Shown in pieces: positions 1,943 to 37,900 of a stretch of 50,881 bases of DNA. The translations under genes and the position numbers were made by a program. Location: positions 1 to 50,881 of the IMG/VR virus record IMGVR_UViG_3300046516_000490; one strand, 5' to 3'. This stretch comes from a virus. Numbering within the stretch: the stretch's first letter is position 1; each line of letters opens with the position of its first letter. Below the pieces are notes generated by a model, which worked only from the letters and a program-made list of their open reading frames with translations, searched no databases and was not told where the DNA came from.

Positions 1943-4687
1943 ATGGCGGCCGGACTGGGTGCGATTCGTTTGCCGGGATCGCTGGGCGACGGCATGGATG
2001 ACATGGCGCCGCAGCGCAACAACGCGCGTCAGGGCAGCGTCATCATCGATCTGAACGACGATGACGAGCCCGACATTCCCGATGTCGATACCGACAAGGG
2101 CGTCGAGATCGAGGGCGGCGGGGTCGTCGTCCGTATCGGCCCGGCGCTCGCCAAGCCGAAGGAAGACCTCAAGTTCTACGACAACCTTGCCGAAGCCCTG
2201 CCAAGAGAGGTTCTCGGCGGGGTCGCCGACGAGCTGCTGCTGCGCATCGAGGAGGACAACCGCTCGCGGCAGGAATGGCTCGACACTCGGGGGCGCGGCA
2301 TCAAGATCCTTGGCCTCAAGATCGAGGAGATGCGGTCGAGCGGGCCAGACGGCTCAGCGCCGCTGGAGGGCCAGTCGCAGATCCGCGCCAGCCTGCTGGC
2401 TGAGTCGGTCGTACGATTTGGGGCGAACGCCTTCGCCGAGATGTGCCCTATCGACGGCCCGGCCAAGGTCACTGAGGATACCGCCGCTGCGACCGTGGAG
2501 CTTGACGACCTCGCCGACGCCTTGGAGACGACCCTCAACCATTACCTGACGGTGGTCGATAAGCCGTGGGTTCCCGATACCGATTCGATGCTGCTGCGGA
2601 TCGGCGTCGACGGTTCGGTGTTCAAGAAGGTCTATCACGACCCCATTCTGCGCCGTCCGATCTCGCGCGCCGTCTATGGCGAAGACGTGATCATCAACAA
2701 TTCGGCGACCTCGATTTACGACGCCAAGCGGATCACCCACCGGGTGATGATGGCGCCCTCGACCCTCCGCCGCATGCAGCTCGCTGGCGCCTATCTCGAC
2801 ATCCCGATTGGCGATCCCGGCTGGAAGCAGAAGGATGCGCCCGAGCTACAGTCGGAGGAGGTCAGCGGCGTCCGCAAGAATGAGAGCCCCGAGCGCGACG
2901 ACCGCGATCACGAGATCTTCGAATGCTATTGCGAACTCGATCTTGAGGGTTTCGAGCACAAGACGAAGGGCAAGCCTGACGGGCTCGCGGTGCCTTACAA
3001 GGTCGCCATCGACCGTGAATCGCGTGAGGTGCTGGAGATCCGGCGGAATTACAACGAAGACGACGAGATGTGTCTGCCGAAGACCTTTTTTGTCCAGTTC
3101 CCGTTTATTCGCGGGTTCGGCATTTACGGCATCGGCCTCTCGCACCTTCTCGGCAACATCGCCAACGGCATCACCGCCGCGTGGCGGGAGTTCCTCGACG
3201 CCGGGATGTTCTCGAACTTCCCCGGCCTATTGGCTGCCAAGGGCTCGGGACGGCAGGACAATTCGGTCATCCGAATACCGCCCGGCGGCATGAAGGAGAT
3301 CGAAACCGGCGGCCTGCCGATCCAGCAAGTCGTGATGGGCATGCCCTACAAGAGCCCCGATGCGACCTTCGTCAGCTTCATCCAGCAACTGAATCAGGAA
3401 GGGCAGCGCCTCGGCGGCACGGCCGACATCATGGTCGGGGAAGGGCGGCAAGATGCACCTGTGGGCACGACGCTGGCACTCATCGAGCAAGCCATTAAGC
3501 CGCTCCTCGCCACCCACAAGCGACTGTGCGCCGCCCAGTCAGATGAGCTTCAACTTCTGGTCGAACGATTCCGAGAAGACCCCGAAGCCCTGTTCCGCCA
3601 CAAGCCGAGCGCCAGCGGCGTGTCGTGGGACGAGCAGCTCGTCGTCAAGGCGCTGAACACCTACCAGATCGTCACCCGCGCCGATCCGAACACCGCTTCG
3701 CACTTGCAGCGCATGCTGCGCAACGCCGCCCTCTACATGATGGCGAAGGACGACCCACCCGCCTTTGACCTCACCGCGATCCGGCGCACTTGCATCCGGG
3801 GCATTGGCTTCGCCAACCCCGACCAGTTCTTGAACCAGAACCCGCAGCCGCCGCCGCCATCGGCCAAGGATCAGGCCGCCGCGACCACCGCTCAAGCCGC
3901 GCTCCTCGACGCGCAGGCCAAGATGGGCCAGCTCCAGCTTGATACTAAGAACGCGCCGATGGAGGCGCAGGCGCGGCAGATGGACGCGCAGGCGAAGATC
4001 GTCGGCGCTAAGGCTGGCGTCCAGAAGCAGCAGATGGCCACCCACACGGCGACCATCCAAGCCCAGAACGAGCAGATGAAGCCCGCCATGGAGCAAATGA
4101 AGCACCAGCACGAATCGCAGGAGAACCAAGCAGATCGTCAGACCGAGCTGATCAAGGAGCAGATGCAGCATGCCCACGAGATGCGGCTTGCCGGGATCGA
4201 GCAGCAGGGCGACCTCCAGAAAGCCCAGACGGACCATGCGGGCCGTCTAGCGGAGGTTGGAGCTAAACACCAGACTGAGATTGCTAAAGCTGGGATGGAT
4301 CAGCAGGGGCGGATGCAGGAGGCCCAGTTCGGGCACCAAGCCGCGCTTGCCGAGGGCCAGCAGGCCCATCAGACGGCGATGGCGCAGGGCGCGCAGCAGG
4401 AGCATACCGCTCTCGCGCAGGGCGCACAGAAGCATGCCACCACCATGGCGCAGGGCGCGATGCAGCGCGACACGTCACTGGCGCAGGGCGAGCAGCAGAA
4501 CCAAGGCAAGCTTCAGCAGATCAAGGCGGCGCCCAAGCCAGCGGCTGGCGCGAAGAAGAAGCCGGGACGGGCGACCGGAGGCCGGGTGACGACGCCGTTC
4601 GGCGAGGCCCGTCAGGCGCCTGACGGCCACCACTACGTCAAGCACCCCCACACCGGGCAGTATTTCCGGGTGAAGAAGGGGGAGTGA
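1943..4687 (+). CDS. Portal protein with a long Gln/Ala-rich C-terminal extension
   Basis: A 914-residue protein. Residues about 60-620 have the character of a podovirus-type portal: acidic N-terminus, LADALETTLNHYL helix, an HRVMMAPSTLRRM segment, a long conserved stretch around LPKTFFVQFPFIRGFGIYGIG, and an ADIMVGEGRQDAPVGTTLALIEQA helix like those of large head-tail connectors. About 640-867 is an unusually long Gln/Ala/His-rich coiled coil with short repeats such as HQAALAEGQQAHQTAMAQGA. The last 40 residues carry GRATGGRVTTPFGE, one example of the GGR motif found in other virion proteins here. A portal dodecamer at the capsid vertex would be the DNA gate and packaging dock. AGGAAG at 1928-1933 precedes the ATG. 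Confidence 0.85.
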   Translation: MAAGLGAIRLPGSLGDGMDDMAPQRNNARQGSVIIDLNDDDEPDIPDVDTDKGVEIEGGGVVVRIGPALAKPKEDLKFYDNLAEALPREVLGGVADELLLRIEEDNRSRQEWLDTRGRGIKILGLKIEEMRSSGPDGSAPLEGQSQIRASLLAESVVRFGANAFAEMCPIDGPAKVTEDTAAATVELDDLADALETTLNHYLTVVDKPWVPDTDSMLLRIGVDGSVFKKVYHDPILRRPISRAVYGEDVIINNSATSIYDAKRITHRVMMAPSTLRRMQLAGAYLDIPIGDPGWKQKDAPELQSEEVSGVRKNESPERDDRDHEIFECYCELDLEGFEHKTKGKPDGLAVPYKVAIDRESREVLEIRRNYNEDDEMCLPKTFFVQFPFIRGFGIYGIGLSHLLGNIANGITAAWREFLDAGMFSNFPGLLAAKGSGRQDNSVIRIPPGGMKEIETGGLPIQQVVMGMPYKSPDATFVSFIQQLNQEGQRLGGTADIMVGEGRQDAPVGTTLALIEQAIKPLLATHKRLCAAQSDELQLLVERFREDPEALFRHKPSASGVSWDEQLVVKALNTYQIVTRADPNTASHLQRMLRNAALYMMAKDDPPAFDLTAIRRTCIRGIGFANPDQFLNQNPQPPPPSAKDQAAATTAQAALLDAQAKMGQLQLDTKNAPMEAQARQMDAQAKIVGAKAGVQKQQMATHTATIQAQNEQMKPAMEQMKHQHESQENQADRQTELIKEQMQHAHEMRLAGIEQQGDLQKAQTDHAGRLAEVGAKHQTEIAKAGMDQQGRMQEAQFGHQAALAEGQQAHQTAMAQGAQQEHTALAQGAQKHATTMAQGAMQRDTSLAQGEQQNQGKLQQIKAAPKPAAGAKKKPGRATGGRVTTPFGEARQAPDGHHYVKHPHTGQYFRVKKGE

Positions 4688-4688
4688 T

Positions 4689-7600
4689 GTGGCCGTTGAA
4701 GACCTCGGCGACGCTGGCGACTGGAGAGCCTTTCCGGTAGATCACGATCCGTTCGCGGACGTTCCCGATTCATCCGCGTCACAGGACCGAAATCGCGATT
4801 TGGGTTATCAGCGCTTTTCCGGCCATGTCGCGGCTGGCCCCAGCGGCTTTGGGCGCCTCGACCAGATGGTTCGGGAGAGCGCTGCGCCTGACGCGCCCGA
4901 GGCCCAGCCGCCAGAGAAGCAATACTACGGCGGCCAATATGGCGCAGCCCTAGAGCATGGCTTCCAGAACCTCGCCGGGGGGATTGGCGGCGCGATAGGC
5001 GGGGCAACCGATCTGGTGGGTCAGGGGGTTGGCAGGGTAGCGGGCGCAGTCGGCGTTCCAGATCCCGAGGGGTTGGGCCGCGCCGTCACCCAGATGCTCG
5101 ACTCCCCGGTTCATGGGCCGACGCCGAGTAGCGCCGCGCATGGGATGGCCGCCGCGCATGGGCTTGGCGGTCTGAGCGAATATGCTCCTGCCATGCTTCT
5201 AGGACCGCTGGCGCGGACGGCTGATCAAGGCAAGCTGGCGAAGGCCCAGACCATGTGGGCTCGTGGCGCTCTCCCGCAGGAAATATACGACGATACAAAG
5301 TGGCTCAAGACCCCGAAAGATCAGTGGCAGTTTGAAGCCCCAGATACCGCAGCCCGCTATGTCGAGGACAAGAAGGCTCGGATTCTCGGTGATGTCCTTC
5401 ACCTTCCAGAGACGTATGCGGCCTATCCGGGGCTCCAATACATTCCGCTCAGCTATATGCCGAAGGGCAAAGAGGGCGGGCTTCGTGGCAGCTTTACGGC
5501 TAGCAGGCAAGCGCCGGGGTCAATGCAGTTTCCGCCGGGGGAGATGGAGCTGAAGCAGGGTCTTGGTAGCCCGAGTGTGCCGTTGCATGAAGTCCAGCAT
5601 GGGGTGCAGTCGATAGAGCGTTTCCCCATGGGAGGAATGCCGAAGCGGCCATACGAGACTAATGCTAATTTCGATATGTGGGAGCAGTTCAGGCGCAACA
5701 ACCTAGATAAGCTGGTACTTAATCCGCCAAAGAATCCGGTCGAATGGGGGAAGTACATGGGGATAGAAGACCCGACGGCGGCAGAGTTCGAATATGATGA
5801 GTTCAAAAGAGCCCACGATCTAGGTGTGAAAACGAACAGCCTGTTGCCGAAAGTGATATCATACGCGGAAAGAAAGGCGAACCACGACTACTATCTCAGC
5901 CATTACGGCGAGGCCGAGGCCCGCAATGTTCAGCATCGCTGGGAGGAGGCGCAGAAGCTGGGCGGCTACGACAAGTTGCCCCACCCATACAAAACATTGG
6001 ACACGACTTATGTGAGCTTCCCGCCCTACGCGGGTGGCGGCCGGGTCGGTTTTGCGGACGGCGGCGTCCTGACCGACGACAACACCGTCTGGCCAGAGGA
6101 TCAGCCGGAACAGCGGCCTTCGAACGTCCCTCCGCCACAAGGCTTCCAGTGGAGCCCGATGAGTGCGCCGGGGCTTGTGGGCGGCCTCTACAACATGGCG
6201 AAGAGCGGGCTCGGCCTGACCGGCGATGTGGCCTCTGGCAAGGCCCGCATGGAAGACCCCGAGACGCAACGGCGCGTCAACGACATGGCGGGGCTGGTGA
6301 CGCTCGGCGCGGGCGCGATGCCTGCGGAGGCTGGCGCACTGAGCATGGGGGCGCGCAACCTGTCGCCGCTCGGGTTCTATTCGCACGGCGCCGATGTGGC
6401 GGCGAACTTGCCCCAGAAGGTCGGGACGACGCAGCAGATGAGGGCGGCGCTGGACAAGGCTGGCGTCAAGCCCGTCGAGATGGAGGGGGTTGGGCTGGGT
6501 GCGGAAGCGATGCCCTATGGGTGGAAGAACCCACCCGTCAACCCGTCCGTAAGCAGTGAAGAACTGGCGGGCCGGTTCCGGCAGGCCTCGCCGCAGCTTC
6601 AGGAGACGGTGCTGGCCAATAAGGGCTCTGGCAACAGTGCTCGCCGCTATCTTTATGTCGATCCCGAGACGGGCGCGCCAAGCCGCGCCGAGGGCGCGAC
6701 AAGGATCGACAACCCGGCATGGGCGCCGTGGCGTCCGCCGCCGCAATTCGAACAGCACTCCCTGCCCGGCGGGCAGAACTACCGCGAAGTGCTGATGCAC
6801 TTGCCAGCCAATCAGATCAGCGATGCGGACGCCCTAGCGGAGGCGCAAAGGTTTTCAAACCGCATCGGCGAAGATTGGAACAGGGTCGCGCCTGCCGATC
6901 AGGCCAGATACATCCAAACCGCTCGTGAGTCGCTGGCTGAACGAGGAGGCTCTCCAAGCAACTTCAAATCCTCCCACTGGGACCAGCCCAACGTTGTCGC
7001 CCATCTGCGGCTGAACGACCGCACGGGCGTGGCTGACCTAAACGATATCCGCAGTCGGGCGGCGAGCGCGCTTGGCGCTCGGCCACAGGATCTTGGCTCT
7101 GGCGCGGCGGCAGCGGCGGTCCAGAAAGGGGCCATAACCCCAGAAGAGGCCGCGTCGCTGTCCAATGCCTCTGGATGGATCAACGGCTTTAAGGGCAAGC
7201 CCGGGATCGAACCAAGGCTCCTGCACATGGAGGAGCTGCAAAGCGACTGGGGGCAGAAGGGGAGGGATGAGGGTTTTGCTGATCCCAAGGTGATCCAAGC
7301 GCATGAGGATTATGTCGCCGATATGCGTCGTCGGATGGCGGAAGGCATGACGCAGGACGGTATCGCTTCGGGTGTTGATCCTGTGAGATCGGGTCAACTG
7401 GCCAAAAGCACTGCTGAGAAGATGGAGCCGTGGCAGCTAGCTAAGTATTTGGGGGAAGATCAGACATTGCGTGATGTGTACGCCAAGCGGGTTGCGGAGG
7501 AGAAAAAGATCCCTCCCGGCCCCTACGTCACCAACACCAATAGCTGGACGGATCTCGGGCTCAAGCGGGCGCTGATCGAGGCCGCGCGCGGCGATTACAC

Positions 7601-10600
7601 CCACCTAAGCTGGACGCCCGGCGCCGATCAGGCGGCGCGCTACGATCTGAGCAAGCAGATCGATGAATTGCACTACACCCCCGCAATGTCTGGTGGTCTT
7701 TTGCGAGGAAAAAAGGACGGACAATGGGTTGTTACGCAGAAAGGCGTCTCGCCGGATGATCTCGCTGGGGCGGTTGGGAAAGAGGTAGCGGATAAGCTTC
7801 TTGCTGCACCGCTCAATCACGAGCGATTTGAGGCTGGCCCAACGCATGAATTAAAGGGTCAAGACCTTCAGGTCGGCGGCGAGGGGATGAAGGGGTTCTA
7901 CGACCGGCAAGTGCCCAATCAGCTCGCCAAACTCGCCAAGAAGCTCGACCCCAACGCCAAGATCGGCACGAGCCAGATCAATGCGCCAGTAAGGCGAGAC
8001 AATCCGATGGGCACCAAGACCGTCCCCTCGCTGGAGATTACGCCGCTGATGCACGAGCGGATCTTGCAGGGCCTGCCGCAATACCAGCGTGGCGGCCGGG
8101 TTGGGTTCGCAGACGGCGGCTCCACTGCCGCCGTCCCAGAGCATCCTGATACCTTGCGTCTCCAGCACGAAGCCCTAGTGAGCGGGAGAAAGGAGCTTGT
8201 CTTTTACCCCGGAGGCGAGGGCTTCAACAGAAATAACTTTGCCGGTGTGGGTTCCAATCTTGGCGTGGTGCAGTTCCCGAATAAGGATACGGCTGTTTTT
8301 CGTAAGGACGGCCCAAACAGGCTTACGCCTAAAGGCGTCAAGGCAGCGATTCGGGCGGGCAGGCTTCACCATTTACTTGGCTATCCGGTATCCCGCGAAG
8401 AGGCGGTCGCCCGCACCCAGCCGCCGTTTAACGAGCAAGGGCTCGGTATTGTCGAGCGCGCTCCTGATGGCACGGAGGCCAGAGCCGCTGCCGCGACAGA
8501 CGCCACTGCCGCTACTCAGGCGGCGGCAATGGAGAGGTCGAAGCTTTCGCCGGAAAACACGATAAGCGCCGAGTCCCCGGAAAAGGTTTTGGCTGGCCGG
8601 GCGGGGTTCGCAGACGGCGGCGCGCTGGAGCCGGTCGAGGGCAATCCATTCGAGGACATGAGCGCGACCCTGTCGGCGAGGCCCGCCCCGCTGCATGATC
8701 GTACGATGCGGCCGACCGATGTCGCGCGGGCCAAGGGCTTCCCCGAGCCGCGCTCGCCGATGCACGAGCGAATCGCCGCCGCGTCGCGGGATGATCTGGA
8801 AGACCCGTCGATCACCGCCCATGGCGGCTACGGCACGCCGATGAACTCGGCCGACATCCTCGCAGGGCGCGCCGGGCCGGTGCAGGAGATGCGACCCTAC
8901 GAAGATCCGACATTTAGCGGGCAGCTTGGCGCGGCGATGGAGCATGGCGCTGAGCGGCTGGGCGCGCCGATGTCAGTCGTACGGTCGGCTGGCGATATCG
9001 GGCAGACGGTGGGGGAGTTCACCGGCCTCGACATGCCGCATCACGCCGAGCAAGCCGTGCTCGCCGCGAAGCATGGCGACTACGGCGCGGCGGCAGGCGA
9101 GGCGCTCGGCGCGTTCCCAATGCTCCCTGCCGCTGGGGCTGCTCGTCTCCCGGTGCGGGGAAAGATCACGACGGCGATCCGCGAAGCCGCATCAAAAGGG
9201 AATGATGCTCGGGTGACGGCGTTGCAGACGATCCATGACGCCCAGCAAACAAGGCTCAATGAGGACATCGAGAGGCTCAACCAGCTTACGCCGGTCCCTG
9301 TTGCCCCGCGCCGCTCCCCCGGCGGGAGCCAGAACCCGGGCACGGCAATTCGCGACAAGCCATATGATGAGGCGCTCTCCTTGGCGGATACCGATCATCA
9401 CCTGATCCGCGATACGGGCGCCAACCCCAGCTCCTACTACGTCGGCGGCCCGACGACCGTGAAGAAGCCTGCCGATCTCACTGCGCTGCGTCGCCAGAAT
9501 TATGGCTATCTGGCGGGCAGGCCTGATGGGTGGGATTGGTACGACCGCTATCGCGCCACGCTTGGCGAGCTTCATGGCGACACGCCGCCGCCCGGCAATG
9601 CTGTCCCGGCCGGGACATGGTCAGCGAGCATGGAGGGCCAGTGGTCGGCCCAGCACCCTCCTGCGACCGAGTTCGGCATGGCGCAGAAGGAGCGCTCGGG
9701 GGCGATTGCTGGCATCCCGCAGCGCGCCAATACCGACGTGCAGCATGAAGCGTTCAACCGAGCCATCGCGACAGGTGACCCGAATGAAATGCAGCTAGGC
9801 AACAAGACAGGCCAGTACGCTCAATTGATTGAGGCGTCGCGCGGTTCTTTGCCGCCGCAGGCGACGGGGGTCAACGACTTTCGCCATGCCACGCAATTGG
9901 GTTACCGCGAACCGGACGGGAGCCCGTGGGACCGTGCTCTAGGCGAGGCTCAGCATCGCTTTGTCGATAATGAAACCGCCAAAATGGTGAAGTGGGCGAA
10001 TGACAACAGGATAGCAGGCAAGACCGACTGGACCGGCGAACAGGTGCAAGCTGCGATCTGGACCCGGCAGAAGGCCGAGCAGGAGATGGTTGACCGGCCA
10101 AATCTTGTTGAAGAGCGCATAAGGCAGGGAATGAGCCCAGAAGAGGCCTATGAGCATGCGTTCAACAATGAGGCATGGCCAGCGGGCAATGCGACGATAG
10201 CTGAACATCTGCCCGGGTTTACGACCTACACCACGCACGAAGCGCAGCCGGGCCTAGAGATCGCGAAGACTGGTCATCTGCCGAAGGCAGCGCAAATGAC
10301 CGACGAGGAGCGCCAGCAGTTCAAAGATAACCCCTTATCGAGCTGGCTGAGCCCGAAGGGGCATGACCGGGTGTATTCCGGCCTCGGCGTCGCCGGGACG
10401 CCGCAAGTGTCGATGATGACGCGGCCAGCGAGCCCGAGCCTTGGCAAGTTTCCTACCGATGCTGGCGTTGAATATAACCCGTCCACTACCGGGCGGGTCA
10501 TCACGGGGCATGGAGCGAGGGAGTCGGAAGAGAAGGGGGCGAAGGCCGTTGCGGCTTACAACCCCGCCGACGAGGCGATTTTGACGGCTGGCGAGACGTT

Positions 10601-11342
10601 GAGAGGTGCAATAGACGCCCAGAATGCGAGCGCAGCGCACCGGATCTTCAAGGGGGGATCACCAAAAGAGATGAACGCGCTCGATATTCCGCTTAGGGGC
10701 GCGACGCGCGAGCAACTGGCCCAGTTGGAAAATATAGGCAGTAAATATGGGCTACATGACGCTATCGACCGGGGGCAAAACGGCGTCACCCTAACCAGCT
10801 TCAGGGATCAACCTCCCGATCTCGCTGGGAGGTCGTATAGGGCGCTCCTCAACGATCTTCAGGCTGGCGGTTTTGACGCGAGCAAGATCGAGCGCGGCAA
10901 GATCGCCTCGATTTATGCTGATCTGGAAAAGCAATGGGCGGCAGGGCCGGGGTCCGGTCAGGTGACCCAGTTGATCCTCGATAAGCTCAGTACGCCAGAA
11001 ATGCGCGAGGCTTTTGCTCAGAACCCGCATCTTGCCGAGATCGCCCGCAACCGCATCCTGCGCGACGACGAGGCCGCCAAGCAATGGGGCGGCCAGCGCT
11101 TAGACCTACGCAACTTGCGGGCGATCATCGCAATGGGGAAGGACTGGCCCGACAGGCTTGAGCAAGCGCGTAAGTACGGGCTGAAAGCTCTTGTTCCAAC
11201 GGCAGCGGCGGCGGGTATCGCACTCTATCCCGAGGCAGGCCTCCCGGCGGGATTAGGGAATGATGCCAATACCAGCGATCAGACGCCGTCAGCACGGCCG
11301 ATGGCGGGGGCAGGCCGAGCGAGGCGAGATCAACTCCAATGA
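4689..11342 (+). CDS. Giant polyvalent protein (2,217 aa) with HExxH zincin and LPD-like modules
   Basis: A GTG start lies one base after the portal stop. Module one (to about residue 450) holds LHEVQHGVQ (HExxH at 300-304) and GEAEARNVQ (near 407), a pattern I recall from zincin-like metallopeptidase domains of phage polyvalent proteins. Module two (about 460-1140) has HMEELQSDWGQKGRDEG near 845, TNSWTDLGLKRAL near 950 and VGGEGMKGFYD near 1062, typical of large-polyvalent-protein-associated domains. Module three (about 1145-1300) ends in an EARAAAATD-type segment. The rest (to 2217) is unrecognised. GGRVGFADGG (near 450 and 1135) and AGRAGFADGG (near 1302) sit at the module borders. Known polyvalent proteins are thought to be injected with the DNA and to act on host defences. 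Enzyme activity here is inferred. Confidence 0.85.
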   Translation: MAVEDLGDAGDWRAFPVDHDPFADVPDSSASQDRNRDLGYQRFSGHVAAGPSGFGRLDQMVRESAAPDAPEAQPPEKQYYGGQYGAALEHGFQNLAGGIGGAIGGATDLVGQGVGRVAGAVGVPDPEGLGRAVTQMLDSPVHGPTPSSAAHGMAAAHGLGGLSEYAPAMLLGPLARTADQGKLAKAQTMWARGALPQEIYDDTKWLKTPKDQWQFEAPDTAARYVEDKKARILGDVLHLPETYAAYPGLQYIPLSYMPKGKEGGLRGSFTASRQAPGSMQFPPGEMELKQGLGSPSVPLHEVQHGVQSIERFPMGGMPKRPYETNANFDMWEQFRRNNLDKLVLNPPKNPVEWGKYMGIEDPTAAEFEYDEFKRAHDLGVKTNSLLPKVISYAERKANHDYYLSHYGEAEARNVQHRWEEAQKLGGYDKLPHPYKTLDTTYVSFPPYAGGGRVGFADGGVLTDDNTVWPEDQPEQRPSNVPPPQGFQWSPMSAPGLVGGLYNMAKSGLGLTGDVASGKARMEDPETQRRVNDMAGLVTLGAGAMPAEAGALSMGARNLSPLGFYSHGADVAANLPQKVGTTQQMRAALDKAGVKPVEMEGVGLGAEAMPYGWKNPPVNPSVSSEELAGRFRQASPQLQETVLANKGSGNSARRYLYVDPETGAPSRAEGATRIDNPAWAPWRPPPQFEQHSLPGGQNYREVLMHLPANQISDADALAEAQRFSNRIGEDWNRVAPADQARYIQTARESLAERGGSPSNFKSSHWDQPNVVAHLRLNDRTGVADLNDIRSRAASALGARPQDLGSGAAAAAVQKGAITPEEAASLSNASGWINGFKGKPGIEPRLLHMEELQSDWGQKGRDEGFADPKVIQAHEDYVADMRRRMAEGMTQDGIASGVDPVRSGQLAKSTAEKMEPWQLAKYLGEDQTLRDVYAKRVAEEKKIPPGPYVTNTNSWTDLGLKRALIEAARGDYTHLSWTPGADQAARYDLSKQIDELHYTPAMSGGLLRGKKDGQWVVTQKGVSPDDLAGAVGKEVADKLLAAPLNHERFEAGPTHELKGQDLQVGGEGMKGFYDRQVPNQLAKLAKKLDPNAKIGTSQINAPVRRDNPMGTKTVPSLEITPLMHERILQGLPQYQRGGRVGFADGGSTAAVPEHPDTLRLQHEALVSGRKELVFYPGGEGFNRNNFAGVGSNLGVVQFPNKDTAVFRKDGPNRLTPKGVKAAIRAGRLHHLLGYPVSREEAVARTQPPFNEQGLGIVERAPDGTEARAAAATDATAATQAAAMERSKLSPENTISAESPEKVLAGRAGFADGGALEPVEGNPFEDMSATLSARPAPLHDRTMRPTDVARAKGFPEPRSPMHERIAAASRDDLEDPSITAHGGYGTPMNSADILAGRAGPVQEMRPYEDPTFSGQLGAAMEHGAERLGAPMSVVRSAGDIGQTVGEFTGLDMPHHAEQAVLAAKHGDYGAAAGEALGAFPMLPAAGAARLPVRGKITTAIREAASKGNDARVTALQTIHDAQQTRLNEDIERLNQLTPVPVAPRRSPGGSQNPGTAIRDKPYDEALSLADTDHHLIRDTGANPSSYYVGGPTTVKKPADLTALRRQNYGYLAGRPDGWDWYDRYRATLGELHGDTPPPGNAVPAGTWSASMEGQWSAQHPPATEFGMAQKERSGAIAGIPQRANTDVQHEAFNRAIATGDPNEMQLGNKTGQYAQLIEASRGSLPPQATGVNDFRHATQLGYREPDGSPWDRALGEAQHRFVDNETAKMVKWANDNRIAGKTDWTGEQVQAAIWTRQKAEQEMVDRPNLVEERIRQGMSPEEAYEHAFNNEAWPAGNATIAEHLPGFTTYTTHEAQPGLEIAKTGHLPKAAQMTDEERQQFKDNPLSSWLSPKGHDRVYSGLGVAGTPQVSMMTRPASPSLGKFPTDAGVEYNPSTTGRVITGHGARESEEKGAKAVAAYNPADEAILTAGETLRGAIDAQNASAAHRIFKGGSPKEMNALDIPLRGATREQLAQLENIGSKYGLHDAIDRGQNGVTLTSFRDQPPDLAGRSYRALLNDLQAGGFDASKIERGKIASIYADLEKQWAAGPGSGQVTQLILDKLSTPEMREAFAQNPHLAEIARNRILRDDEAAKQWGGQRLDLRNLRAIIAMGKDWPDRLEQARKYGLKALVPTAAAAGIALYPEAGLPAGLGNDANTSDQTPSARPMAGAGRARRDQLQ
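8698..8707. repeat. Palindrome ATCGTACGAT inside the polyvalent gene
   Basis: An exact copy of the 10-base palindrome. Arg is encoded by CGT, which I do not see often elsewhere in the gene. Confidence 0.65.
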
Positions 11343-11511
11343 GATCGGCCTTGTCGCAGGCGACATGGAATGGGATGCTATGTGTCCCCCCAGACCACCA
11401 AAACTTTGGCCTCCAGACGCAAATTGGCATCAGGGCTTCAACCCTGACCACCGCTGGAGCGGCGATCAGGCTGATCAGTCCCGTGAGGAATCTCCGCCGG
11501 GGTAGGATCAT
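11125..11511 (-). CDS. Small exported protein with twin-arginine-like signal
   Basis: A 128-residue minus-strand gene, last of a five-gene island. It opens MILPRRRFLTGLISLIAAP: a twin Arg, Phe-Leu and hydrophobic core, like a Tat signal, with probable cleavage after an Ala-containing segment around residue 20-26. I recall many short proteins with this RRRFLTGL...AAPAIVR opening in Rhizobiales phages, without known function. GGAAGAG about eight bases upstream supports the start. Its last 218 bases overlap the 3' end of the giant polyvalent gene in antisense, so either tail may be poorly conserved; the first 60 residues are the best supported part. Confidence 0.6.
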   Translation of the reverse strand: MILPRRRFLTGLISLIAAPAVVRVEALMPICVWRPKFWWSGGTHSIPFHVACDKADLIGVDLASLGLPPPSAVLTASDRWYWHHSLIPPGGLPRDRVRYPPPLPLEQELSARTYALAQACRASPSPLR

Positions 11512-11635
11512 CGTTCAGCTCTTCCTCTATGTCGGGCTTCCAGTCGTCGGGCAGGCCGTACTTCTCCCGTAAGACCTCTTGGTATTCGAGGCCGGTGCAG
11601 ACCCAGACCTCCCACATGTCGTTCCAATGCATCAC
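11438..11635 (-). CDS. Small acidic protein of the minus-strand island
   Basis: A 65-residue protein starting MMHWNDMWEVWVCTGLEY; the middle is acidic (DIEEELNDDP) and the end polar. The first codon is GTG (11635) in a GTGA overlap with the stop of the preceding gene; an ATG follows immediately and could also serve. Its 3' end overlaps the start of the RR-signal gene by 74 bases in another frame. It has no signal peptide and no recognised family; the call rests on operon position and coupled start. Confidence 0.55.
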   Translation of the reverse strand: MMHWNDMWEVWVCTGLEYQEVLREKYGLPDDWKPDIEEELNDDPTPAEIPHGTDQPDRRSSGGQG

Positions 11636-12003
11636 TTGATCCCCACGGCCTGCTTGGCGGCTTCCTCGGCCTTCAGGATGATCATCAGCTTGTTGATCTC
11701 ATCCTTCTTGCCCGCGAGCGCCGCGTCATGCTCCTTCTGATCCGCGATCTGTTCAGGGGTGCGCGGGTCGGGTTCGCCAATGTTCTCAATCGCGGGAAGC
11801 GGCATGGTCTTGACCGGCGGCGCGGGGTCGGGCGGCGTTGCGGTGATCTCGACGTAGTACGACTTGTCGGGCGCGGGTGCGTGAAGCGAAACGTGCGTGA
11901 CGCCGCAGCGCTGCGGATAAGGGTATTTCCACACCGAAAAGCGATGGCAGGCGGTTGCGGGCTGGGCGCTGACCAGCAGCGTGGCGAGGGCGATCTTGAT
12001 CAT
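11632..12003 (-). CDS. Secreted CHRFSVW-type small protein
   Basis: A 123-residue protein from the ATG at 12003, chosen because it forms an ATGA overlap with the upstream stop; an ATG four codons earlier is possible. MIKIALATLLVSAQPATA is a clear signal sequence, followed by CHRFSVWKYPYPQRCGVT with two cysteines that could form a disulfide after export. The middle is proline-rich (TPPDPAPPVKTMPLP) and the C-terminal 45 residues are a charged helix. I recall similar ACHR(F/Y)S.W.YP.PQRC proteins in alphaproteobacterial phages and prophages, function unknown. A periplasmic role, for example in lysis or superinfection exclusion, is only a guess. Confidence 0.7.
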   Translation of the reverse strand: MIKIALATLLVSAQPATACHRFSVWKYPYPQRCGVTHVSLHAPAPDKSYYVEITATPPDPAPPVKTMPLPAIENIGEPDPRTPEQIADQKEHDAALAGKKDEINKLMIILKAEEAAKQAVGIK

Positions 12004-12248
12004 TGGCTGCACCATTCACAGTTGGGGGTTTCGCATTTGGCAACGCCGTAGTTCATGCGTTGCGCCACGTCGTCGAAGTCGGGCGTCCATGGCTGGCGGG
12101 AGCTATCGACCAGCTCGTGGATATCGGCGCATTTCCAGACATGGCCATGCGGCGCCTCGACCCGCAGCTCGTTGTGGCCAAATCCGCGATCATACTCCAC
12201 TGTCGCGCCAACAGCTTTGGCGAGGCTTTTGATGCCTCTAAGGTTCAC
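12000..12248 (-). CDS. Small conserved hypothetical protein
   Basis: An 82-residue protein with a GTG start in a GTGA overlap with the upstream stop. It carries GIKSLAKAVGATVEYDRGFGHNEL and a HVWKCADIHELVD segment, and ends CETPNCEWCSQ. The C-x4-C-x2-C end with an upstream Cys could bind a metal, but the spacing fits no family I can name. There is no signal peptide. It lies in the middle of the minus-strand island and is translationally coupled on both sides. Confidence 0.65.
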   Translation of the reverse strand: MNLRGIKSLAKAVGATVEYDRGFGHNELRVEAPHGHVWKCADIHELVDSSRQPWTPDFDDVAQRMNYGVAKCETPNCEWCSQ

Positions 12249-12469
12249 GGGGTCGTCTCCTTGGTTTCGAGGCCCTTGAGGGTCCAGCGGTGGGTGACCG
12301 GGTCGTCCGACTCGACGGCGCGCCGGTTCTCGGCCCCGGCCTTGCAGCCCATCCAGCGGTTCTGAAGGTCGATGGCGTAATTGATCGCCTCGCCTGCGGT
12401 GGCGAAGCGCAGGCCGTTGCCGACCCAGCTATTTTCGCCAACGCCTTTGATCTCGGGAATGAATGACAT
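12245..12469 (-). CDS. First gene of the minus-strand island, small hypothetical protein
   Basis: A 74-residue soluble protein (MSFIPEIKGVGENSWVGNGL...INYAIDLQNRWMGCKAGAENRRAVESDD). The layout, with a short helix AGEAINYAIDLQNRW and then a beta-like VTHRWTLKGL tail, resembles small phage proteins of unknown role. GAGGAG (minus strand, 12475-12480) is five bases from the ATG, the best ribosome binding site in the island, which marks this as the leader gene. The candidate promoter is at 12493-12521. Confidence 0.7.
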   Translation of the reverse strand: MSFIPEIKGVGENSWVGNGLRFATAGEAINYAIDLQNRWMGCKAGAENRRAVESDDPVTHRWTLKGLETKETTP

Positions 12470-12492
12470 GGGGGCTCCTCTTGTCGCAGTAA

Positions 12493-12521
12493 CAGCTACA
12501 CTCGACCCTCCTCATTGTCAA
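12493..12521 (-). promoter_or_regulatory. Candidate promoter of the minus-strand island
   Basis: On the minus strand a perfect TTGACA (12516-12521) is followed after 17 bases by TAGCTG, a poor -10 box. It is placed about 25-50 bases before the first gene of the island. Its -35 box overlaps the one proposed for the opposite strand, so the two transcripts may interfere. Confidence 0.45.
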
Positions 12522-12543
12522 CCATGAGATTTCCGCGTAGCAA
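12515..12543 (+). promoter_or_regulatory. Candidate divergent promoter for the head-gene operon
   Basis: TTGTCA (12515-12520), 17 bases, then TAGCAA. It reads toward the basic RGG-rich gene and the capsid genes and shares its -35 region with the minus-strand promoter. The -10 box is weak. Confidence 0.35.
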
Positions 12544-12587
12544 TTGCAGCGAGGCAGATGCGGGATGTGAGAACCGGGAGGCTCCCT

Positions 12588-13601
12588 ATGACGGGGCTGA
12601 CGCCGAAGGCTCATACCCAAGCGGTCCTCAAGAGGATGAATCTGGCGGGCTCTGTTCCGGGGAATTTGAACCGGGACAACGACGCCAGCGGCGACAATTA
12701 CGGCCTCGCCTCCGCGCGCTCATCCGACTCTTCCAGCTTCCAGATGGACGGCGCGCCGAAGAGCCCGCACATGGGCAGGCCCGGGCGCCAGAGCGGCGGG
12801 CGGATCTCTGGCGACCTCGTTCGCACCCGGCGCACCCCCGAGGAAACCGCAAGCGACATCGCGAATGAGGACAAGGTCGTCAACGCTCTGGCGAAGGATC
12901 GTCGCAGCGAAGGCGCTAGGGACGCTGTAAACGGGGCTAAGATTTTGCGTATGTCGCCAAGCCAGCGCGACGCCTACGCCAATGAAAAGGACGGGGGGCG
13001 GATTGGCCGCTGGAAGGGCGGGGCCGCTCGGGACAAGCTGGGGCAGAAAGACGCTTTGGCCTCGGATAACCCCGGTTACGGGGATGCGATGCCGGGCGAG
13101 CGAGAATATTACAACTTCATTCGCGGCGGCCTTGGCACGACGAAGGTCGGAGCGCCGATGGGCAAGGGCGGCGTCGGGTCTGACGCAACCGCCGAGCCGA
13201 CGAACCAAGCCAAGGGTGGCCGAGTCGGCCGCGCGCGGGGCGGGCGCACCAAGGGCAAGACGACCGTCAACGTGATCATCGGCGGGCAGAAGACGATGCC
13301 GCCGCCAGCTCCCATGATGCCTCCTCCGCCGATGGCGGCCTCCGGTCCCGTCGGCCCGCCACGGCCTCCCATGCCACCTCCCGGCATGGGTCCGCCGCCC
13401 GGCGGCGCGCCTCCGGGCATGGGGGGTGGACCCCCTCCCGGTATGCCTCCGATGCTCCGGGCGCGGGGTGGGCGAATCGAGATCTCGACCCCCGGCAAGC
13501 ACGACTACGGCAAGGCTGGCGTGCCGCACGGCAAGATCGATGAGAAGTACGGCGGCGGCTCTGGCCTCGGCCGACAGGCGAACGCGCGGCGCCAGAAATG
13601 A
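12588..13601 (+). CDS. Basic RGG-motif virion-type protein with proline-rich linker
   Basis: A 337-residue protein. The ATG at 12588 is preferred over one at 12558 because GGGAGG at 12576-12581 is ideally spaced. The sequence is low in hydrophobic residues and likely mostly disordered. It holds repeated Gly-Arg units: MGRPGRQSGGRISG, KDGGRIGRWKGG, AKGGRVGRARGGRTKGK and RARGGRIEI. A run of about 55 Pro/Met/Gly residues (roughly 245-300) separates the last units. The same GGR units occur in the portal tail and the giant proteins, suggesting a shared binding or processing signal. Its position after the portal block and before the capsid block fits a head component or nucleic-acid binder, but no family was recognised. 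Confidence 0.75.
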   Translation: MTGLTPKAHTQAVLKRMNLAGSVPGNLNRDNDASGDNYGLASARSSDSSSFQMDGAPKSPHMGRPGRQSGGRISGDLVRTRRTPEETASDIANEDKVVNALAKDRRSEGARDAVNGAKILRMSPSQRDAYANEKDGGRIGRWKGGAARDKLGQKDALASDNPGYGDAMPGEREYYNFIRGGLGTTKVGAPMGKGGVGSDATAEPTNQAKGGRVGRARGGRTKGKTTVNVIIGGQKTMPPPAPMMPPPPMAASGPVGPPRPPMPPPGMGPPPGGAPPGMGGGPPPGMPPMLRARGGRIEISTPGKHDYGKAGVPHGKIDEKYGGGSGLGRQANARRQK

Positions 13602-13828: not shown

Positions 13829-14047
13829 TTGGACGCCGCCAGCCTCTATTTCGGAGGCAAGCTCTTGGAGATCATCCGCGCCAAGCAGGCTGAGATGTCG
13901 AAGCCCTTATTGCTCGGGCAGGCGCTCGACTACCCCGACTACAAGGCCCGCGCCGGGTATCTGAAGGGCTTAGCCGATGTCGTCGGCTGGATGAAATCAA
14001 TCGACATGGAAGATAAGGAGACGGCGTCAGCATGGCGACAGGATTAG
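13829..14047 (+). CDS. Small helical phage protein (TTG start)
   Basis: A 72-residue protein (MDAASLYFGGKLLEIIRAKQAEMSKPLL, then DYKARAGYLKGLADVVGWMKSIDMED). It starts with TTG immediately after the stop of the Acb2-like gene; GGAAGG at 13815-13820 supports this start. I recall similar short phage proteins opening (M)DAA.LY.GGKLLEIIRA, placed near head genes, of unknown function. Two amphipathic helices are predicted by eye, with no membrane segment. Its end overlaps the cochaperonin start by 16 bases. Confidence 0.7.
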   Translation: MDAASLYFGGKLLEIIRAKQAEMSKPLLLGQALDYPDYKARAGYLKGLADVVGWMKSIDMEDKETASAWRQD

Positions 14048-14442
14048 TTCAGAAGCTAGCGCACAAGGAAGACCCAGCCACCGTGATCTGGCTCGCGCTG
14101 GGCAATGCGCTCGACGAGTTCGACATCGCCGCGCAAGGCGTCCTGATCGCCATGTATGAACGGCCGGATGACGTGAAGACCGAAGGCGGCATCCTCCTCC
14201 CGCACGCCCATGTGAAAGAGGACGAATATCAGAGCCGGGTCGCGCTGGTGGTGAAGCTCGGCCGCCGCGCCTTCACTGACGACGAGCATGTGAAGTGGGA
14301 CGGCTACCACTGCGAGGTCGGCGACTGGGTCGCGCTGCGTTCCAGCGACGGCATGAAGCTCAGCGTCAGGGGCGTCCACTGCCGCCTGATCTCTGATGTG
14401 TACCTGAAATTGAAGATCCCTCATGCGGATGCGGTGTTCTGA
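14032..14442 (+). CDS. GroES-like cochaperonin (Cpn10)
   Basis: A 136-residue protein. Residues about 36-58 (VLIAMYERPDDVKTEGGILLPH) match the Cpn10 pattern of a first beta strand, a mobile-loop region and the G-I-x-L-P element. RVALVVKLGRRAF (69-81) and CEVGDWVALRSSDG (94-107) fit the barrel strands. No GroEL gene is present, so it would cap the host chaperonin to help fold the capsid protein, as T4 gp31 does; that parallel is an inference. The N-terminal 30 residues (HKEDPATVIWLALG) are longer than in bacterial GroES, as is common in phage versions. It directly precedes the scaffold gene, with a stop-start overlap. Confidence 0.85.
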   Translation: MATGLVQKLAHKEDPATVIWLALGNALDEFDIAAQGVLIAMYERPDDVKTEGGILLPHAHVKEDEYQSRVALVVKLGRRAFTDDEHVKWDGYHCEVGDWVALRSSDGMKLSVRGVHCRLISDVYLKLKIPHADAVF

Positions 14443-31932: not shown

Positions 31933-34900
31933 ATGGGCAGCGTACTGGCTGGCGGCAGCAACACATCGACGACATCGAGTTCACCACCGCCACAGGTCTT
32001 GGCCAATTATCAAGGCTTGGTGAACCGCGCGACCGGCGTCGCGAACACGCCTTACACTCCCTACCCGGGCGAGATGGTCGCCGCGCTGAGCGATCAGACA
32101 TTGCAGGGCCTTGGCGGCGTCAACCAGTACGCGGGGGCCGCCCAGCCGTATCTTCAGCAAGCTGGCCAGATGGTGCAGCAGGGCAGTCAGAATCTTGGCC
32201 AAGCTGGCCAGATGACCCAGCAGGCGGCCAATAGCCCAGTGACGCCGCAGGCATTTTCTGGCAGCGAGATCGACAAGTACTCCAATCCGTTCACCAAGTC
32301 GGTGATCGATGCGACGCAGGCCGAGTTCAACAATCAGAACGCGCAGCAGGCGCAGTTCTTAAACTCGCAGAACATTGGAGCTGGAGCGTTCGGCGGCGAC
32401 CGGGCCGGGATCAGTCAAGACATCCTCGCCAATCAGCAGAACCTCGCCCAAGCCCCGGTGATCGCTGGCCTTAACCAGTCGAATTACAATCAGGCTCTGG
32501 CTGAGTTCAACAACCAGCAGCAAACTGGCCTTGGCGCGCAAGAGTACAACAACAGCATGCTTGGCCAGATGGCCAATCAGTACGGCAACATCGGCACGGC
32601 GTTAGGCACCCTCGGTGGGCAGTACGGCAATGTCGGCACGGGGATACAAAACGCCGGGATGCAGGGCTCGAACGCGCAAGTCCAATCCGGCATGATCCCG
32701 CAGGCGGAGCAGCAAGCAGTTGATACCTCTCTCCAGAATGTCTGGAATCAGGGGCAGGCCTATCCGTTCCAGACGACCGACTTCCTCGGCAACATCATCG
32801 AGGGCACCGGAACCAATAGCGGCGGGACATCGCAGTCAACGTCGCCGGGGCCTAGCGCGCTTGGGCAGACCATAGGCCTCGGGACAGCAGGCCTCGGCGC
32901 GCTTTCCAATCCGGCCGTCACCAGCGGCATTGGCGCCGCATTCGCGGCTCTGCCGTTCATGGCGCGAGGGGGAAGAACCCCGTCGGATCGTGAGAATGTG
33001 AGGACGGTAGGAAAGACGTTCGACGGTCAGGATATCCAGAGCTACAACTTCGCGGGCGATCCGCGCACCCATTACGATAGCGGCGGCAGCGTCTCGCCGG
33101 GCCAGATCTACAACCTCGGCGTTGGTAAGGCGGCATCCCCGGCGGGCGCGCTGGCGCTGTTGGCTCCCAGTTCTGGCGCGGAAGCCGGGACGGGAAAATT
33201 TGGCAAGGGCTCGCTGGCGCTGACGCCGGGCGGCACGATCATGCAGGCGACCCCCGCACCGTCTCAATGGGCGCCGGGGCCTCAGTCTGTTCAGCCGGAA
33301 TGGGGCGGCGGGGCAGCGTCACCCGCGAACCCCTTGCCAGCGGGTCCGATGCAGCAAGCTTCGGGGCCGAGGCCTCCGTTGCGGCCGGGGCCGATGGTGG
33401 ACCCGCGACAGGTGGCGGCGGCGGACGGCGGGCGGATTGGCCGCGCGACTGGCGGGACGGCAATCGGCGGCGGCGCTCCTCAGATGTCGAACTGGGCCGT
33501 CTATCCGTTTCTCGACACGGCAACGCCGGGGGCGATAGCGCAGGGCTACGGCGTGCCATCGCCGTTATCCGGCCTCGCCCAGATGGAATATTCCGCCCTT
33601 ACTGGCGGCGCGGCCCCCGGCTCCACTTTGCCAGCCAACGCCTTCACCCAGACTGGCAATGAATCGCTGTCGCCATCGCTGCCGAACACCTCGGGCGCCG
33701 CGCCCGGCACGGTGTTCAATCCAATCAATTACATGGACCCCACCCAGAATTTCCAGACGGCGGCGGCAGCGAATAGCGCCAACACGGCGAATGACATTGC
33801 CCTGCGAGGCATCGATCCCGCTTCCATGGGGCCGAACGCTTTTATCGGCTCGAACCCGCCGGGTGGGAGCCACCTTCCCCAGAACCCCGCAGCCGCTGCC
33901 GCTGGACCTCCGGTCAATCTGCTTGGCTCTGGTTCGGGTGGCGGGGGAGGCGGTGGGGGTGGGGGCGGAGGTGGCGGGGGTGGAGGCGGTTCAGGCTCTG
34001 GGGGCTCTGGCTCTCATAGCAGCACCTCGGGCTCGGGCTCCCAGAGCAACAGCAGTAGCGCTCCTAAATGGCTGGGCACTCCCATCAGCTCGATCCTCGA
34101 TTTGGAGGGCAAAAACTATGTTGGGCCGACGATATCGGGCGGTTGGGTTGGCACGCCTTATAACCAGCTTTCGCCCACGCAGCAGGCATGGGCGGATCAG
34201 CAGAGGAGTGTAACCAGCCAGATAAAGAACATGAGCCCCAGCGAAGTTCTGAGCAAACTCACCTTGATGCCTTCCAAGGCTTACGGCGGCAGGACCGGGC
34301 GGCAGGACGGCGGCGGGCTCGGCGACCTAAGCTATTACACGCCGACCACCGGCAACGCGCGCGGGGCGACCTACCATCCGCCGATTCCGCCCCTCGCGCC
34401 GCCGCCCACCCCGCAGCCGATATATACGCCGCAGCATCACGCGCCGCACCGCGCTCCCCCGAGAGCGCAAGTTCCCTTGCCTCCGCCCCGGCCCCTGACG
34501 CCGCCGTCGCCAATGACGCCGCAGCCCGTTGCGTCCGCGCCTGCGCCGATATCGTTGCCCATCCTCAATCCCGACGAGACGAAAGATCCGTTCATCCATT
34601 ATCCAGACGCCAGCTTCCCGCAGCCGTCATCGCGTCAGCCTGACGCCAATCCCGATGATGATCCAGCCGCACGTGAGCGCGGCCTCGACGCGCTCAAGGC
34701 TCTGCTGGGCGGCGGGCGACCCGGCTTCAACATGGGCGGCGCGAATGCGGGCATGCTGGGCCAAATGCCGCTCGCGGGCGCCACCGGCTACACGCCGCCG
34801 GGACAGGGCGTCACCGGCATGGATTCGCAGGGTTCGCCGATGGGCTCGGGCAGCGCCAAGGCCGCAGGCTTCGACGGTCTGTTCGGCTCTGGGTTCCAGA

Positions 34901-37900
34901 GAGGCGGGCGGATCGGCTTCGCGGAGGGCGGGCTGGCCGGGCTCGGGATGGACCCGTCGCAATCCACCGATCTCTCTGCTCTCCTTGCGGCGATTGGACA
35001 GCCGCTGCCAATGGGGCCGGGCGTCCATATCCCGAGGCCCCCAGAGCAGAAGGACCAGAAGCAGTCGGACTCGGGTTTCGGGGGGCTTGGCGACGCTCTC
35101 AGCAAACTTGGCCAGACCCATAAGGGAGGCGGCCTTGGGCCGGGCCAGACCGGGGCCGGGCTGGGCGCTCTGGCCAATCCGCCTGACGCCGACATCTCGG
35201 GCATGAACGTCGATATGAACCCGGCCGACTTCGCCGAATTTAGTGGCGGCGAGTTCGCCCAAGGCGGCATCGTACGACCAAGATTTCAGGATGGCGGCGT
35301 CGGCGATGGCACAAACGGCACCACCGCAGCGGTAGGCGATCCCGGTGTTGGAACGCCGGGGCCGGGCAACCCCGGGGGACTGGGGTTCGGCATCAGCGGC
35401 GCCACGAGTGGCTCGGGCTCGGCGAACGCGGGTAATGCAGTGGGGGGTCACGGGGGCGGCGCCGCCGCCAGCGGCAGTGACGGCTTCGGTGCTGGCGGCA
35501 ATCCCGGCAACCAAGGCAATGTGTCGCCCGCGCAAGTGGCGCTCGATCAGCAAAGTTTAGCGCACGCCGCAGCCGTACATGCTGCGCAAAATCAGGGCGT
35601 ACAGGGCCTCAACCCCGCAGTTCAGAACCCACTTACTGTGGCAGCGCAGTTGGGCCTTGGTCACCTCGGTGCTCTAAGCAATGTGAGCCTCGCCCATCCG
35701 ACGCCTCAAGTGACGGTTTCGCCGCTCGCGCCGCCGCCGTTCCATATTAACCCTGATGTGGTGACGCAGCTCAACAACCAATTTAATCCTCTGCACGATA
35801 TGCGCCGGGGCCTGTTCGGCCCGCAGGCCTCTCCCTCCACTTCGCATGTCGCCACGGTCGCCAACCCGGGACAGGGGCCGCATGGGCCGAGCACGGCGGT
35901 TACCGGCGGGGCGAACAACAGCGGCGGGCCGGGGGCTGGGATAGCGGGGATTGCCGCAGCTCCCGCGTCGGTGGGGAACACGGGCGTCGCGAACAATAAC
36001 TTCGGGCGCGGGTACATTCCTGCCAGCGCAGTCTCCAACCCGAACACTGGCGGTCGCGGCTTCGGCTTTGGAGGGATCGTACGACCGGGGTTTGATGATG
36101 GCGGCGTTGCTGCTGCCGCTGCGGGTGATCCTGCTGGCGGTGTTGGCGGCCTCGGCGGCGCTGGCACCGGCGGTCCATCAAGCACTGGCTCATTTGGCGG
36201 AATTAGCGGCGTTGGCGGCACTGGTGGCGGTCTTGGCGGCGCTGGTGGCTTTGGCTTTGGAAACAGCACCGGAAGCTTCGGCGGGGGCGATAGCGTTGGC
36301 ATCGGCGCTCCCGCTGGTCCTGCTGGCCCCGGCGGCGCTGGCGCGGGCGGCGGCACAGGCTCTGGCAGCAGCGCGGGCGGCGACGGCGCATCAGCGTCTG
36401 GTGGCCCGGGTGCGGGAACCTCGGGCACTGGCGGCGGGAGCACAGGCAGCGTCGGCGGCGGCGGTCATGGCGGCGGGACGGCCTCTGGACCCGGCTCTCA
36501 GTATGGGGTTCTCGCCTCTGGGGCGCACACCGCGCTGGTTGCTCTCCAGCATGGATTGGCGATATCGCCCGATGTGGCGCTGCGGGCGGCGCAAGCGATA
36601 CAGAACGGATTGGTGAGCCCGGCAGACGCGAAGTCACTTTCGCTCAACAACGCGATCAACCACCAGTTAACTCAGCTACGCGGGAGCGGCGGCGTGGGGC
36701 CTGCAACCACTTCGAATGTTGTCAGCAACCCAAACCAACAAGCCCAGTACAACGCTATTCAAGCTCTCCTTGGCCACCTTGGTCAGCCATCATTGCCCGG
36801 GCTTAGTGGAGAGGCGCCCGGGCTTTCGCCGGGCATGTCGATGGGGTTCCCGGCATTTAACCCTTCCCTCGGCGCGCACGGCATACAGGGCACGCCTGCC
36901 CCGGCCGGGACGCTGGGACCGGCTCATAATTTTGGCGGCACGGGTGGTGCGAACAACACAGGAGGGCTTGGGGCGGGAATCGCGGGTAATTCTACGGCTG
37001 CGCCGAGCATGGCGGTTACCGGCGGGGCGGACAACAGCGGCGGGCCGGGCGCAGGCATCAGCGGTAACGCCACGGCGCTTGCGCCGGGGCCGGGGCCGTC
37101 CACGAGCCATACCCAAAATATGACGCTAGGGATGCTGGCTGCGCCCGCGACAGCACAAGCATTGATGGGGCAACTTGGCCCTGCTTCGGCAGGGTTGGGC
37201 ACGGTCGGGACCGGCGGAGCGAACAATTCTGGCGGCCGGGGCGCCGGGCTCATGGGTAACCAAGTCTCCGGTGGTCGCGGCTTCGGGCTCGGAGGCATCG
37301 TGCGGCCGGGTTTTTTGGAAGGGGGCGACGCACCGGCTGACGCGCCCCCGACTGCGCCTGAAGCCGCCCCTGCGCCGCTAGACCCCAATACAGCCGACCT
37401 CTCCAAGCGGATCATCGGCGTCGAGAGCGGCGGGAAGAACCTCGTCAGCCCGGCGGGAGCGCGCGGGCCGGGCCAGATCATGCCCGGAACCTTCGCTCAG
37501 TATGCCCGACCCGGCGAGAGCATCGATAATCCGAAAGACAACATGGCGGTCCACGACCGGATCATGGCCGACTACGCGCAGCGCTGGCCCAATGATGCGG
37601 CGCGTCAAGCGACCGCCTATTTTTCCGGTCCCGGCAATGTCGCGCCTCCCGGCTCGGCAACGCCGTGGAAGCGCAACGTCAGCGACGTTAACGAAAACGT
37701 GTCGAAGTACGTCGATAGCGTCGGGGCAGGCGGCGGCAATGGCTTAGGGGGTGCCGGAACGCTGGCCTATGCTGGCGCGGACCAGAACCAGCAGCAGCGG
37801 CAGTTCCAACCGAGCGCCCTTGCCCATGCCGACCCGGAGACGCAGATCGGCGCGGCGATGGATGACGCCGCCCGCGCGCCCGACAAGCAGCTATTGCAGT

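Follow-up and report, generated by a model that had tools for sequence, protein, structure and literature searches.

A modular polyvalent protein encoded beside the portal gene of an uncultured tailed phage, probably carried in the phage head and ejected along with the DNA

Main finding

The virus record IMGVR_UViG_3300046516_000490 encodes, directly after its portal gene, a 2217-aa protein (P0001) which we read as a polyvalent protein that most likely travels in the phage head and is expelled together with the DNA, with module A as a putative metallopeptidase and modules B and D as putative effectors. We give this reading a probability of about 0.72. It is favoured because P0001 carries an LPD23 domain above cut-off, an HExxH motif and a later Glu kept in about 88 relatives, and a match to MPTase-PolyVal; because the conserved portal-side slot holds swapped cargo, and the modules are split or fused in relatives; and because a homologue of module A, H66 gp60, is annotated in the virion and the class has been described (PMC5512222). 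It is weakened because H66 gp60 has only module A in common with P0001, because the AF2 models gave no significant match in the PDB, and because proximity to virion genes would also fit a purely structural head protein.

Polyvalent proteins are large multidomain phage proteins with LPD and zincin MPTase domains, which are located among virion genes and are probably injected (PMC5512222). Like them, P0001 is large, has LPD and zincin-like domains and lies among virion genes, and it holds disparate domains in one long chain: LPD23, the zincin-like module A, module B and a DUF7178-like module D. The preliminary description had called it a polyvalent protein, and the name is borne out by LPD23, by the zincin and by a portal-side slot that holds ART-PolyVal, InPase, PBECR5, M15 and GNAT domains in relatives. 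P0001 is thus a further example of an already known class, to which this analysis adds two features, a conserved slot for cargo and a motif at the module junctions.

The gene and its position

The window, meaning the whole stretch of DNA that was analysed, is 50,881 nucleotides of a linear virus record. The window ORFs that were searched included none recognisable as a terminase gene, so the window is probably incomplete.

1943..4687, plus strand: portal gene, directly upstream of P0001 (phrog_1216, E 5.6e-19)
4689..11342, plus strand: P0001, polyvalent ORF of 2217 aa with a GTG start
14032..14442, plus strand: GroES-like gene, end of the cargo slot (phrog_3188, E 2.7e-8)

The 2,217-residue ORF just after the portal, as previously described, was verified together with the portal itself. 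The portal stop is at 4687 and P0001 starts one base further on, with a Shine-Dalgarno-like, purine-rich AGAAGGGGGAG just 5' of the GTG. The reading frame is not a chance one, since homologous domains lie in frame and the longest ORF on the opposite strand across P0001 is only 313 aa. P0001 is located among late/virion genes, with the portal before it and the GroES-like gene and major head genes after it. The roughly 1.2 kb past the polyvalent gene (11343-12557) hold no convincing long gene.

Module A

5184..5987, plus strand: module A, LPD23 and zincin-like metallopeptidase domain, about residues 166-433 (family profile, hhalign, AF2)
5202..5357, plus strand: LPD23, residues 172-223 (PF18838, E 1.3e-8, 34.9 bits against a gathering cut-off of 27)
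5586..5600, plus strand: HEVQH, residues 300-304 (HE in 88/88 and H304 in 88/89 aligned rows)
5907..5933, plus strand: GEAEARNVQ, residues 407-415 (E408 in 88/88 and R412 in 84/88)

The HExxH and GEAEARNVQ motifs noted earlier are both present, at residues 300-304 and 407-415. R417 is kept in all 89 aligned rows, and E408 is a candidate third zinc ligand. A profile of residues 160-455 matched 88 ORFs in the retrieved loci, and at least 350 IMG/VR stretches were confirmed in a scan that started from an alignment; in phages the module is found as a stand-alone gene or as part of long proteins.

Compared by hhalign with MPTase-PolyVal (PF18818), using a profile that is an alignment of sequences collected in this analysis, module A matched with 81.5% probability (E 1e-5) across a strand and the HExxH helix, while the GNAT and glycosylase controls reached 0.3% at most. 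The likeness is confined to 41 columns; past HExxH module A has another motif, and LPD23 is fused ahead of it. Among the relatives, a few match Peptidase_M78 and DUF6782 ("putative metallopeptidase"). Confidence in the AF2 model is high for LPD23 and lower around the active site; the model places strands ahead of the HEVQH helix and E408 on a helix, and has no significant PDB match. The earlier zincin claim is therefore well supported at the level of sequence and profile, and stands without a significant fold match.

A known counterpart is gp60 of Pseudomonas phage H66 (YP_009638975.1; Hollowayvirus, with F116-like relatives), which also has an LPD23 + HExxH + GExEAR module and is annotated as a virion protein verified by mass spectrometry. 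It differs in being 3787 aa long, in its other domains, and in its identity to P0001, which is about 30% and falls within module A only. Its gene lies just upstream of a holin, where portal adjacency is not evident, unlike that of P0001.

Module B

6354..8090, plus strand: module B, unnamed enzyme-like domain, residues 556-1134 (IMG/VR matches, conserved polar residues, AF2)

Module B, which is highly conserved, was confirmed in at least 597 IMG/VR stretches and matched in one phage record at 34% identity. A Pfam search of its aligned rows gave no family match, and the rows do match some PHROG models built from very long proteins. The preliminary description had counted at least two LPD-type blocks; LPD23 is the only formal LPD domain, and the second block corresponds to module B. 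Its near-invariant residues (in up to 99 rows) are E597, N697-Y698-R699-E700, H763, R774, E849, Q851-S852-D853, G858-R859, W953, R984, G1063 and Y1071-D1072, a pattern that is enzyme-like. A portal-like ORF adjoins module B relatives in 46 of the 93 evaluable loci.

The AF2 model is good across most of the domain, with PDB fold matches that are all below significance. Some of these sub-threshold matches were to acetyltransferases; a GNAT identity was rejected, since hhalign gave 0.6% at most. As both AF2 models fall short of a significant match in the PDB, catalysis in P0001 remains predicted.

The C-terminal half and module D

9426..10223, plus strand: module D1, divergent DUF7178-like all-helical domain, residues 1580-1845 (phmmer, Pfam via relatives, AF2)
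10224..11078, plus strand: module D2, alpha/beta companion domain, residues 1846-2130 (D-unit profile, AF2, BFVD matches)

The C-terminal half had been described as holding no known domains, which is understandable, since a single-sequence search with this half gave no match in viral contigs or phage records. The family was reached with a degenerate pattern for its W...[QE][VI]QAAIW motif, which found at least 120 stretches with the motif inside long open frames. Residues 1580-2130 proved to be homologous to a unit in more than 120 viral contigs, and DUF7178 (PF23802) is matched by 45 of 50 aligned members, so the earlier view does not hold.

P0001 itself has no match to DUF7178 in a Pfam search, and its homology runs through intermediates. 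With residues 1521-2217 as query, phmmer matched L089 (1.7e-33), L157 (6e-24) and L100 (1.7e-8), E-values that are relative to a small ORF set, and L100, like other relatives, matches DUF7178 above cut-off, in its case at E 1.3e-13. P0001 and DUF7178 share the G.K, Asp and W...QVQAAIW motifs, and all 50 rows keep G1704, K1706, D1730, W1781, Q1787 and W1791. The context of the Asp is GVND in P0001, L089 and L242, as opposed to VT.D.W in DUF7178; L242 also has A and D fused in one ORF. Conservation extends over a unit of about 550 residues, against 193 for the Pfam model; this unit consists of the all-helical DUF7178-like part and an alpha/beta part, the D-unit profile extending over D2 in most relatives.

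The BFVD fold matches of module D are phage proteins, some of them named as polyvalent-associated, and its AF2 model has no significant match in the PDB. PDB sequence searches with P0001, module A and module D gave nothing meaningful, and the literature search found no paper on DUF7178. For D2, ferredoxin-like, SOUL-like and phage SAM-lyase-like folds were considered and are not claimed, the best PDB probability being 0.18 (6zm9); one relative has a weak SOUL match. The earlier suggestion that the last 900 residues may hold new effector domains stands in that their function is unassigned, and is qualified in that they comprise a recognisable, divergent DUF7178 and a conserved companion domain.

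Module D seems to be essentially viral, since it was found in only 1 of 398 Pseudomonadota genomes. The sole match there (L404, in G087) is a 3606-aa open frame, probably on a prophage or phage contig.

Cassettes and the cargo slot

4710..5168, plus strand: Gly/Ala-rich header of cassette A, residues 8-160 (repeated ahead of cassette D)
8718..9110, plus strand: header of cassette D, residues 1344-1474 (repeat of the cassette A header)
8124..8588, plus strand: segment C, short and unnamed, residues 1146-1300 (single weak relative L250, E 5.5e-5)

The header ahead of module D repeats the one ahead of module A (local alignment score 91, maximum of 80 in 2000 shuffles), which suggests that separate cassettes were joined; a comparison of headers A0 and B0 gave no significant repeat. 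Among relatives, the modules lie in split, adjacent genes as A then B (L012, L028) or B then D (L111, L171, L195), and are fused in one ORF as A+B (L014, L271), B+D (L163) or A+D (L242). As read from these ORFs, the relatives show directly that separate cassettes were joined in different combinations. The combination of LPD23-zincin, B, DUF7178 and D2 occurs in no other record examined and, together with modules that end in GG(R/K)-type junction motifs, sets P0001 apart from the polyvalent proteins described so far.

The portal, a GroES-like gene and the modules occur together in 15 loci, with the modules mostly between the two genes and sometimes just before the portal. A related case is MW202675.1 (Caudoviricetes sp. 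ct7L0027), a complete genome whose head, tail and ejection genes are syntenic with those of the window, with 62% identity for the MCP and 47% for the portal, its "head to tail connecting protein". Its slot likewise runs from portal to GroES, and its module B is 34% identical and followed by GGRVGFAQGG. It differs in having three slot ORFs in place of one, namely a GNAT + M15 + ART-PolyVal protein, the B protein and a protein with InPase, so that GNAT, M15, ART-PolyVal and InPase replace A and D. Elsewhere the slot holds B, two copies of A, Hydrolase_2 and a weak ART match (L209); PBECR5, Hydrolase_2 and A (L263); or ART-PolyVal and M15 ahead of DUF7178 (L111). These gene orders indicate that predicted effector cargo is exchanged at a fixed portal-adjacent position among related phages. 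The slot offers a simple handle for finding more injected effectors in uncultured phages.

Two further observations may be added. The GroES-like co-chaperonin gene is a conserved feature, with the cargo slot on one side of it and the capsid genes on the other. In another protein (P0004, L002:8574-11270), the N-terminal part contains GIGTAKAGF...PTLDARQ, which recalls a helix-hairpin-helix glycosylase; Pfam matches its C-terminal InPase only.

The junction motif and alternative readings

6036..6065, plus strand: junction motif 1, GGRVGFADGG, residues 450-459
8091..8120, plus strand: junction motif 2, GGRVGFADGG, residues 1135-1144 (abuts the end of module B)
8592..8621, plus strand: junction motif 3, AGRAGFADGG, residues 1302-1311
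12558..13601, plus strand: proline-rich, GG[RK][VI]-rich neighbour, 347 aa (4 motif copies against 0.44 expected, P 0.0005)
31933..39399, plus strand: ejection/SLT protein, 2488 aa (phrog_4287 DNA ejection, E 1.4e-13; SLT, E 6e-7)

A short G-[LIV]-P-x-[YF]..GG.[VI] stretch closes module B in many relatives. Of 99 B ORFs, 52 have GG.[VI] within -25 to +60 of the module end, where the density elsewhere is 0.065 per 85 aa, and of 88 A ORFs, 19 have it close to the end of module A, where 0.09 is expected. The motif also occurs in the window at the portal C-end and in the ejection protein (GGRIG/GGRPG), whose N-terminus is of the DNA-ejection type and which carries an SLT domain at about residue 1850 along with three GG[RK]-type motifs; most of its length is unassigned. 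The neighbour at 12558-13601, which has no Pfam match, corresponds to "yenB" of MW202675.1, where a looser pattern finds 7 copies, and it recurs beside module genes in many loci. A literature search on the GGRIG motif gave no paper among the matches listed.

The location of the motif at module boundaries raises the possibility that P0001 is a self-processing polyprotein, in which the module A zincin would cut the GGRxGF junctions and free A, B and D before packaging or after injection. Relatives encode these modules as separate genes, zincin autoprocessing has been proposed for polyvalent proteins, and DdrB of phage P1 is processed ahead of packaging (PMC5512222). We nevertheless regard this as doubtful: the slot proteins of MW202675.1 are rich in GG motifs while module A is absent from the whole searched record, which argues against module A as the dedicated junction protease, and the motifs are found in the GG-rich neighbour and the ejection protein, which need no cutting. 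The same distribution would suit a GG(R/K)(V/I) tag that is no cleavage site and that serves in packaging or docking, bringing slot cargo, ejection proteins and the GG-rich neighbour together inside the head. In MW202675.1, copies of GG[RK][VI] are few outside the slot and cluster within it, in "yenB" and in the M15, B and HhH/InPase proteins; in the window the copies lie in the portal C-end, P0001, the neighbour and the ejection protein; and motif-rich neighbours recur in L209, L111, L132, L171, L195, L131, L105 and L191. This tag can be put forward only tentatively, because enrichment across all genes is modest (147 against 54.5 and 70 against 34.0 in shuffles) and GG[RK][VIAP] within P0001 alone does not exceed shuffles (2 against 0.79). 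Whether for cargo packaging or processing, the motif is a testable signal.

Two other readings concern the nature of the domains. D1 might be an HhH-GPD-type DNA glycosylase/lyase, since its order of G.KT..F..N followed by an invariant Asp and W..R recalls the endonuclease III region, and a local hhalign match to Nth covers exactly the G.KT..F..N/Asp segment. We consider this improbable and keep it as a weak rival, as the probability is 0.5% against a profile of 31 diverse HhH-GPD sequences with Nth and MutY, no glycosylase is among the PDB fold matches listed, and P0001 has R, not W, two residues past the Asp. Least probable is that P0001 is a structural inner-head or scaffold-like protein with relic enzyme-like domains. 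It is large and portal-adjacent, and its headers and linkers are Gly/Ala-rich, but A, B and D all keep nearly invariant residues of catalytic type over highly diverged phages, and slot cargo is exchanged among related phages.

Proposed role

For P0001 as a head-packaged polyvalent protein, we infer packaging, injection, proteolysis and targets from the class (PMC5512222) and from the location of the gene. Injection, and the counter-defence role named in the preliminary description, are putative. Each cassette would consist of a header, an enzyme-like module and a GG(R/K)-type tail, and the cassettes would be joined in a single chain. After expression from the portal-side cargo slot, P0001 would be packaged in the head and would leave it along with the DNA by way of the internal/ejection proteins. 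Inside the host cell, module A may act as a metallopeptidase that releases other modules or cuts host proteins, and modules B and D may act as early effectors.

Environmental phages commonly carry module B and the DUF7178-D2 unit, neither of which has an assigned function; for B there is not even a Pfam model. As a speculation that we think rather unlikely, GG(R/K)(V/I) could be a general address label that loads the portal-side effector slot, or a cut site within it, and B and DUF7178-D2 could be two unclassified injected enzyme families of many uncultured phages.

The ejection protein has two neighbours of its own. Straight after it lies a 1020-aa ORF (39401-42463) for which PHROG gave no match and Pfam none that is credible, and directly ahead of it is an acetyltransferase-like gene (31371-31928), which MW202675.1 has too.
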